A stretch of 64,000 nt of DNA from Paracholeplasma manati. Lineage in GTDB: Bacteria; Bacillota_I; Bacilli_A; Acholeplasmatales; UBA5453. The stretch spans positions 186,001-250,000 of the forward strand of contig NZ_JAOVQM010000001.1 of assembly GCF_025742995.1 (NCBI RefSeq), given 5' to 3'. Made by a program: the position numbers and the translations under genes. Position 1 is the stretch's first letter, and each line of letters opens with the position of its first letter. Positions 59,235-61,485 of the stretch are shown here, piece after piece. The notes beneath the pieces were generated by a model. It had not been told where the DNA came from, ran no database searches, and worked only from the letters and a program-made list of their open reading frames with translations.

Positions 59235-60848
59235 TCATTTGTCTTGTTTATTCAGAATTGCTGCTTCGATGAATCCTTTAAAAATTGGATGAGGGCGAAG
59301 TGGTCTAGATAAGAACTCTGGATGGAACTGACAAGCGATAAAGAATGGGTGTTCAGGAATTTCAATCATCTCGACTAAGTTGAGTTTTTCGTGTAATCCA
59401 GAGAAAACCATGCCATAAGATTCAAAAGCTTCACGATAGGCATTATTGAACTCATAACGGTGGCGATGTCTTTCTTCAATGACATCTTTTTGATAGAGCT
59501 TTTGAGCCAATGTATTTGGTTTGATATGACAGGTGTATAACCCTAAGCGTTGTGTCCCACCCAAATCTTTGGAGAGGTCTTGTGAATGCATCAAATCGAT
59601 GATTGGATATTTGGTTGCAGGATCGATTTCAGTCGTTGTTGCTAGCCCAATACCCATGACATTTCTCGCAAACTCAATCGAAGCGAGTTGTAAACCATAA
59701 CAAATGCCAAAGAATGGTACGTTGTGGGTTCTCGCGTATTGAATGGCTGCCATTTTACCTTCGGTAGCACGTTCACCAAAGCCCCCCGGTACCAAGACAC
59801 CGTCAGAACCGGCCAACACTTCCTTCACATTTTCTGTATTGATTTTTTCTGCATTTAGATACTTGATGTTGATGTTTTTACCAAAGTGATAACCTGCATG
59901 TTTTAAGGATTCAGAAACCGATAAATACGCATCATGAAGGCTGACATATTTACCTACCAATGCGATGTTGATGGTATCTTTTGCATGTTCAATCTTATGA
60001 ATCAAATCCATCCACGGGGATAAATCAGCTTCCATCTTAGGTTCTAATTCAAAGTGTTCTAAAATCAAATCATCGATTTTTTGAGCCTTCAAGTTCGGAA
60101 TGGTTTTATACAAGACATCGACATCGACCGATTCAAATACGTGGTCTGTTTCTACGTCACAAAATAACGCAATCTTTTCTTTGGTCGATTTCGCAACCGG
60201 TACTTCACTTCTTAAAACGATCATATCCGGTGAAATCCCTAAAGATCTCAACTCTTTAACCGAGTGTTGGGTCGGTTTGGTTTTAATTTCATTCGCTGCT
60301 CTTAAATATGGTAACAAGGTGGTGTGGATGTATAACGTGTTTTTATGCCCAAAATCACGTCTGGCTTGTCGGATGGCTTCTAAAAAAGGGAGCGATTCAA
60401 TGTCCCCAACGGTCCCACCAATTTCAGTGATGACCACATCCGCTTTAGATGATAAAGCAACCCGTTTCAAACGGTCTTTGATTTCATTCGTGATGTGTGG
60501 AATGACTTGGATGGTTGCGCCAAGGTAAACACCTTTACGTTCTTTATCGATGACGGTTTGATAGATTTTCCCTGTGGTTACTGAGGAATCTTTCGATAAG
60601 TTTTCATCGATGAAGCGTTCATAATGTCCTAAATCGAGGTCTGTTTCACAACCGTCATCGGTAACAAACACCTCACCATGTTGGTAAGGCGACAATGTGC
60701 CTGGGTCGACGTTGATGTATGGGTCGAATTTTTGCATGAATACTTTGAGTCCACGACTCTTGAGTAGCTGTCCAACCGTGGACGCCATAATGCCTTTACC
60801 AAGCGATGAAACGACACCGCCGGTAACGAAAATAAACTTTGTTTTCAT
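59235..60848 (-). CDS. pyrG: CTP synthase
   Basis: UTP to CTP using glutamine. 537 aa. Synthetase domain opens [17 protein letters not shown]; glutaminase domain has the nucleophile Cys in [11 protein letters not shown] and His-Glu in CQFHPEF. GAGGTG before ATG. Preceded by its own promoter and a leader terminator, and by rpoE, as in Bacillus. Confidence 0.98.
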
Positions 60849-60869
60849 CTCTTCACCTCGAAAAATATA

Positions 60870-60914
60870 AAATAAAAAGGTCTCCCTTTACAGGAGACCT
60901 TATATGAGTTGCCC
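60870..60914 (-). promoter_or_regulatory. pyrG leader attenuator, CTP-sensitive reiterative type
   Basis: Predicted transcript begins at 60914 with GGGC, seven bases after the -10. Fourteen bases on comes a terminator AAGGTCTCC / GGAGACCTT (60901-60877), then TTTTTATTTT. The 5' arm TCTCC could pair with extra G residues added at the 5' end when CTP is low, preventing termination. This is the arrangement shown for Bacillus subtilis and Lactococcus pyrG; here it is inferred from sequence. Confidence 0.8.
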
Positions 60915-60920
60915 TTCTTA

Positions 60921-60949
60921 ATTATATCAAATAAAAATCGGTGAAGCAA
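60921..60949 (-). promoter_or_regulatory. Promoter for pyrG
   Basis: Minus strand: -35 TTGCTT (60944-60949), 17-base spacer, -10 TATAAT (60921-60926), then TAAGAA before the GGGC start. Confidence 0.85.
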
Positions 60950-60957
60950 CGAGAATT

Positions 60958-61485
60958 TTACTTGTCGTACATGTCTTCGTAATCGTCCATGATTTCGTTG
61001 TAATCATCGTCGTCGAAGTCAATGTCTTCTTCATCTTCAATGATGATGGCGTCTTCTTCGTCAAGTAGTAAGTCTTCCTCTTCTTCATCGTCAGGAAGGA
61101 TACCATCTTCTTCTTCATCGTCTTCTTCATCATCTTTGAGTTCGATTTCGTCTTCTTCAGGAATATAGTAGTCGTCAACAGTCAATGTGTCGTCTTCTTC
61201 TTCCTCTACCACTTCTTCAGTGGTGTTGAAGTAAGAACCATCTTTATCCCAAAGTTCAAGGTTATTTTCTTTTAGATCCCATTCATCATTGCCACAAAAA
61301 ACGAATTTTGCTGACAAGGTCATGTCAATGTATAGTTGTGTTAATTTTTCAGTGTCTTCTTTAGAGATTTCTTTAAGTGATGCCACTGATTCTAATAAAT
61401 CGTAGATATTCTTTTTGCCTTCTGATCTTAAAATCTCTTCAGCAATTTCAACCATGGATTTGTTTACATACGTTTGTTTAGCCAT
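60958..61485 (-). CDS. rpoE: RNA polymerase delta subunit
   Basis: 175 aa. N-terminal HARE-HTH-type domain (MVEIAEEILRSEGKKNIYDLL, FVFCGNDEWDLKEN) and a long, almost wholly acidic C-terminal tail (residues ~90-175). Speeds RNA polymerase recycling and sharpens promoter choice in Firmicutes. Directly upstream of pyrG. Confidence 0.95.
   Translation of the reverse strand: MAKQTYVNKSMVEIAEEILRSEGKKNIYDLLESVASLKEISKEDTEKLTQLYIDMTLSAKFVFCGNDEWDLKENNLELWDKDGSYFNTTEEVVEEEEDDTLTVDDYYIPEEDEIELKDDEEDDEEEDGILPDDEEEEDLLLDEEDAIIIEDEEDIDFDDDDYNEIMDDYEDMYDK

Follow-up and report, generated by a model that had tools for sequence, protein, structure and literature searches.

The leader that precedes pyrG, the gene for CTP synthase, in Paracholeplasma manati is, with a probability of roughly 0.87, a transcription attenuator that senses CTP and needs no protein to do so. 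In a 64,000-nucleotide stretch of DNA (the window) we found an extended -10 element, a GGGC motif and an intrinsic terminator with a pyrimidine-rich 5' arm in succession ahead of pyrG. The initial annotation had proposed that this leader works by the same CTP switch as in B. subtilis, and the presence and selective conservation of all sequence features needed for such a switch support this proposal.

On the minus strand the elements are arranged in the order TTGCTT-17-TGaTATAAT-TAAGAA-GGGCAACTCATAT-AAGGTCTCCT-GTAAA-GGGAGACCTT-TTTATTTT, followed by GAGGTG and the pyrG ATG (Table 1). As annotated, six bases (TAAGAA) separate TATAAT from GGGC, and the terminator, with TCTCC in its 5' arm and a T tract (60901-60869), lies ahead of pyrG, between the presumed transcription start and the Shine-Dalgarno-like motif. 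The hairpin, comprising AAGGTCTCCT, the loop GTAAA and GGGAGACCTT, corresponds to +14 to +38 relative to the presumed +1 G, with 13 nt ahead of it in a leader of 66 nt, matching the length that had been estimated. The description of the promoter as near-perfect holds for the extended -10 element, which is indeed perfect, but not for the -35 hexamer, which matches the consensus in only three of six positions at a 17-base spacing. For this reason a consensus promoter scan missed the pyrG promoter, the hairpin being listed.

Table 1. Elements of the pyrG leader and flanking genes in the window (positions count from the first nucleotide of the window).
Feature	Position	Strand	Basis
-35-like hexamer TTGCTT	60944..60949	-	3/6 consensus, 17 bases 5' of -10 (sequence)
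Extended -10 TGaTATAAT	60921..60929	-	TG 60929-60928, TATAAT 60926-60921
GGGC, putative transcription start and slippage site (+1 G at 60914)	60911..60914	-	position relative to -10, invariant alignment columns
Terminator 5' arm AAGGTCTCCT	60892..60901	-	hairpin scan, folding, pyrimidine bias in relatives
TCTCCT in 5' arm, putative target of poly-G run	60897-60892	-	
Intrinsic terminator hairpin, 10 pairs, loop GTAAA	60877..60901	-	-16.0 kcal/mol with flanks; covariation
Terminator T tract TTTATTTT	60869..60876	-	sequence
Shine-Dalgarno-like GAGGTG	60854..60859	-	sequence
pyrG, CTP synthase, 537 aa, ATG start, TGA stop (table 11)	59235..60848	-	TIGR00337 790 bits, NF003792 821 bits
rpoE-like gene upstream (RNA polymerase delta, acidic C-terminus)	60958..61485	-	ORF list, sequence

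The pyrG product matches the profiles TIGR00337 and NF003792 well above their cut-offs. As pyrG ends in TGA, the standard code applies, and the annotation of the organism as a probable mollicute is true in the broad sense, the genome belonging to the order Acholeplasmatales. The rpoE-like gene lies upstream and fba downstream of pyrG, a neighbourhood similar to that in B. subtilis, where the gene order is rpoE-pyrG-fba. The rpoE-like gene of the window has no terminator of its own ahead of the pyrG promoter, and the leader hairpin would stop its transcription too.

In B. subtilis scarcity of CTP leads to reiterative addition of G at GGGC, and the poly-G thus formed blocks termination (Meng, Turnbough and Switzer 2004, cited by PMC4448216 and PMC4403831); adding four Gs to the 5' end of the pyrG transcript increased the amount of its mRNA about 325-fold (PMC4403831). 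For S. agalactiae and S. pyogenes, too, untemplated Gs at the pyrG start are reported (PMC4448216, PMC6431027). From the analogy with B. subtilis we infer start site, slippage, CTP dependence and readthrough in the window leader. Transcription would begin at the first G of GGGC. If CTP is ample, C would be added and the polymerase would leave the promoter and halt at the hairpin, resulting in little pyrG being made. If CTP is scarce, the polymerase would stall before the C, and the short GGG RNA would slip on the template, several untemplated Gs being added. The poly-G 5' end could then pair with the TCTCCT arm as it emerges, ahead of synthesis of the 3' arm, and with the 5' arm occupied in this way the terminator would fail to form and pyrG would be transcribed.

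We folded the leader with increasing numbers of extra Gs. When folding was limited to the part preceding the 3' arm, six or more extra Gs lowered the energy of the hairpin between poly-G and the 5' arm from -2.6 to -9.0 kcal/mol, although the duplex comprises only six pairs, of which three are G-U. In the full leader at equilibrium, however, the terminator (-16.0 kcal/mol) accounts for 98% regardless of how many Gs are added. The leader of B. pumilus, used as a close relative of B. subtilis and serving as control, behaved alike, with energies of -9.1 to -20.4 kcal/mol and a terminator fraction of at least 91%. As the terminator wins at equilibrium, the switch would have to work kinetically, and it is probably decided by the order of folding, in which the poly-G hairpin can form first. 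We rejected equilibrium folding as proof of switching because it does not discriminate, the terminator winning in the Bacillus control too. Ranked by the energy gained from added G, the leader came third, not first, among the 16 terminators of the window.

A GGGC motif downstream of a -10 element is not unusual on its own, as the pattern TATAATN{5,7}GGGC had three matches in the 1.87 Mb genome and two in the reversed control; it was thus rejected as evidence by itself, being at chance level. With the pyrimidine arm and the T tract included the pattern occurs at a single place in this genome, before pyrG. The full strict pattern was detected in 51 of 160 Acholeplasmatales genomes, the reversed pattern giving no match, and comparison with the positions of pyrG located nearly all matches in the order directly 5' of this gene. 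Those located otherwise are three leaders before DUF1846 genes (see below), one leader at a contig end (G011:C32), which is not joined to the pyrG contig of that genome, and two matches away from pyrG (G117:C190 and G148:C6), which look like chance and were discarded. A second, class-wide pattern scan added little. The related genomes make a chance origin of the leader very unlikely.

We also read and classified the pyrG upstream regions independently of the strict pattern. Alignment of related pyrG leaders, suggested as a check in the initial annotation, revealed that GGGC, its spacing, the hairpin and the pyrimidine arm are conserved across the order. In all 54 GGGC pyrG leaders (54/54; families f1, f3 and f4) the motif is located exactly six bases after the -10 element and is almost always followed by A; the -10 element is TATAAT or a one-base variant in 54/54, with TG in the f1 and f4 leaders. 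These leaders are 59 to 100 nt long, counted to a script end point that falls a few bases into the gene. Beyond the order, pyrG is preceded by the same leader in those f16 genomes for which loci were read. In 19 aligned leaders the GGGC columns are invariant, eight of the nine stem pairs exhibit two-sided compensatory changes that keep the pair, and the loop-proximal stem alternates on its 5' side between C and U alone. Among the six innermost bases of the 5' arm, at least five are pyrimidines in 42/44 leaders vs 26/148 other terminators drawn from the window and related loci (Fisher 6e-22), and the 30 distinct arms agree (28/30, 1.6e-15), with the p values overstating independence as the leaders are related. 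Ten GGGC leaders for which the script gave no simple hairpin, most of them compact variants, were left out of the arm count. Terminator strength alone does not require a pyrimidine bias of the 5' arm. The elements, their conservation and spacing, the covariation and the strand asymmetry are direct observations.

Leaving aside the phytoplasma-like group, 36 pyrG regions have no GGGC leader, many pyrG genes lacking it because they lie close behind a dapL-like or purF-like gene with no promoter visible. In five small phytoplasma-like genomes (L048, L050, L051, L052, L262) there is likewise no such leader before pyrG. Other relatives have altered leaders. GAGC replaces GGGC in G018, G126, G070 and L077, with promoter and pyrimidine-arm terminator being kept, and the GAGC leaders at loci L027, L224, L226 and L077 represent natural changes of the putative slippage site. 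In G006 (L047) the pyrG start has GGGA (GGGGA) in the position of GGGC, G116 (L255) has a GGGT start and no clear hairpin, and G156 (L261) carries GCAGGC instead. The terminator stem of genus g7 (G014, G055, G065; loci L055 and L054 in G014 and G055, respectively) begins at +1 so that GGGC is inside the 5' arm. In genus g15 (L035, L037, L041, L042, L043) a pyrimidine run, CCCTTTTT or TCCCTTTTT, is located right after GGGCA, so that Gs added at the start could fold back onto it through a very short loop.

That some relatives keep promoter and hairpin with GAGC, GGGA or other starts was counted against the switch, and other readings of the leader have to be weighed. CTP might act by slippage and start-site choice alone, through unproductive initiation, with the hairpin attenuating at a constant level. 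Nucleotide-sensitive slippage at initiation is known from E. coli pyrBI, codBA and upp, which are regulated without a terminator step; these promoters, however, have no poly-G antiterminator and sense UTP rather than CTP. Slippage alone does not explain why the pyrimidine bias is selective for the 5' arm, whereas pairing with poly-G does, and we thus consider this reading very improbable. Slighter still is the chance that the hairpin simply terminates transcription of rpoE, the gene upstream, and is situated just behind an unregulated pyrG promoter. No other rpoE terminator precedes pyrG in the window, and the hairpin would also stop readthrough from rpoE, but five related loci (L017, L038, L040, L225, L244) have a separate rpoE terminator upstream and yet keep the leader hairpin, indicating that the latter is distinct. 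Moreover, the leader is also found behind genes other than rpoE, and conservation of GGGC together with the pyrimidine arm would not be expected of an rpoE terminator.

The slightest chance of all is given to control of the terminator by a protein, such as PyrR, or by a riboswitch, with GGGC merely being a good start site. Gram-positive bacteria commonly regulate pyrimidine genes through PyrR-dependent attenuation, but a leader of this length, with so few nucleotides before the hairpin, could hardly accommodate an aptamer or a competing hairpin. In a search of the leader against Rfam no family came close to its gathering score, and PyrR was absent even at E values up to 5.

The CTP-sensing attenuator proposed here resembles the one of B. 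subtilis pyrG in the GGGC start, the pyrimidine-rich 5' terminator arm and pyrG downstream, and the L. lactis pyrG attenuator follows the same principle. Whereas in the Bacillus relatives GGGC is followed by CTC or CTT, the -10 element is weaker and the terminator is located at about +42 (B. pumilus), the window leader has an extended -10, GGGCA and a terminator at +14. The annotation as very compact is therefore appropriate in comparison with Bacillus, but the leader is ordinary within Acholeplasmatales. G reiteration at the pyrG start of S. agalactiae and S. pyogenes is known from RNA, in contrast to the window leader, which is known from sequence alone; in S. agalactiae a terminator lies downstream of the pyrG start, as in the window leader. 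We found no report of the attenuator in Mollicutes in the literature searched, a limited collection. Judged from the conserved sequence features, a known Bacillus-type mechanism extends to a new branch, the mechanism being very likely. New are the conservation across the order with repeated losses, variants that carry GAGC or are very compact, and the occurrence of the leader before DUF1846.

In four genomes of one Acholeplasmatales genus the leader precedes a gene for DUF1846 (UPF0371, PF08903) instead of pyrG (loci L149/L191 in G038, L177/L189 in G136, L175/L185 in G138 and L190 in G144), and pyrG is located elsewhere in these genomes, without the leader. GGGC, spacing, hairpin and pyrimidine arm are kept. 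In G022 an aminotransferase-like gene is followed by the leader, pyrG and fba, and in G136 the same aminotransferase-like gene is followed by the leader, DUF1846 and fba; these matching neighbours, clearest in this pair, indicate that the leader stayed while the gene behind it was swapped in place. The four DUF1846 leaders differ in their hairpins but share GGGCACC, the spacing and the pyrimidine arm. Such persistence suggests that the leader is still in use, although it could also be due to common descent. If the switch still works, DUF1846 may be under CTP control in these four genomes, a reading that we hold only tentatively and consider rather unlikely. To our knowledge, pyrG has been the only target of such a CTP switch so far. 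Other DUF1846 members with a located start, i.e. all but a few in the order and the class sample, have no such leader. The predicted DUF1846 fold (pLDDT 87) confidently matches its own family alone (3bh1 and 7f00), arguing against a CTP-synthase-like enzyme, which was rejected as a candidate, and structure comparison gave no link to CTP. For C. difficile, DUF1846 is given as an essential, unassigned protein (PMC12548448), and a hemin-binding role has been claimed for it in S. pneumoniae (PMC9238395).

Comparison of the leaders reveals the fixed parts of the switch, namely GGGC six bases after the -10 element and the pyrimidine arm, and the natural series of intact leaders, GAGC, GGGA, hairpins from +1 and the phytoplasma-like loss constitutes a ready-made mutant panel. 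CTP control of DUF1846, if true, would hint that its protein bears on the CTP pool, making the leader a testable clue to an essential family of unknown function. For the Acholeplasmatales, the pyrG leader would mean that a nucleotide sensor needing no protein, of which few Bacillota have provided proof, has been carried into a wall-less, small-genome branch.
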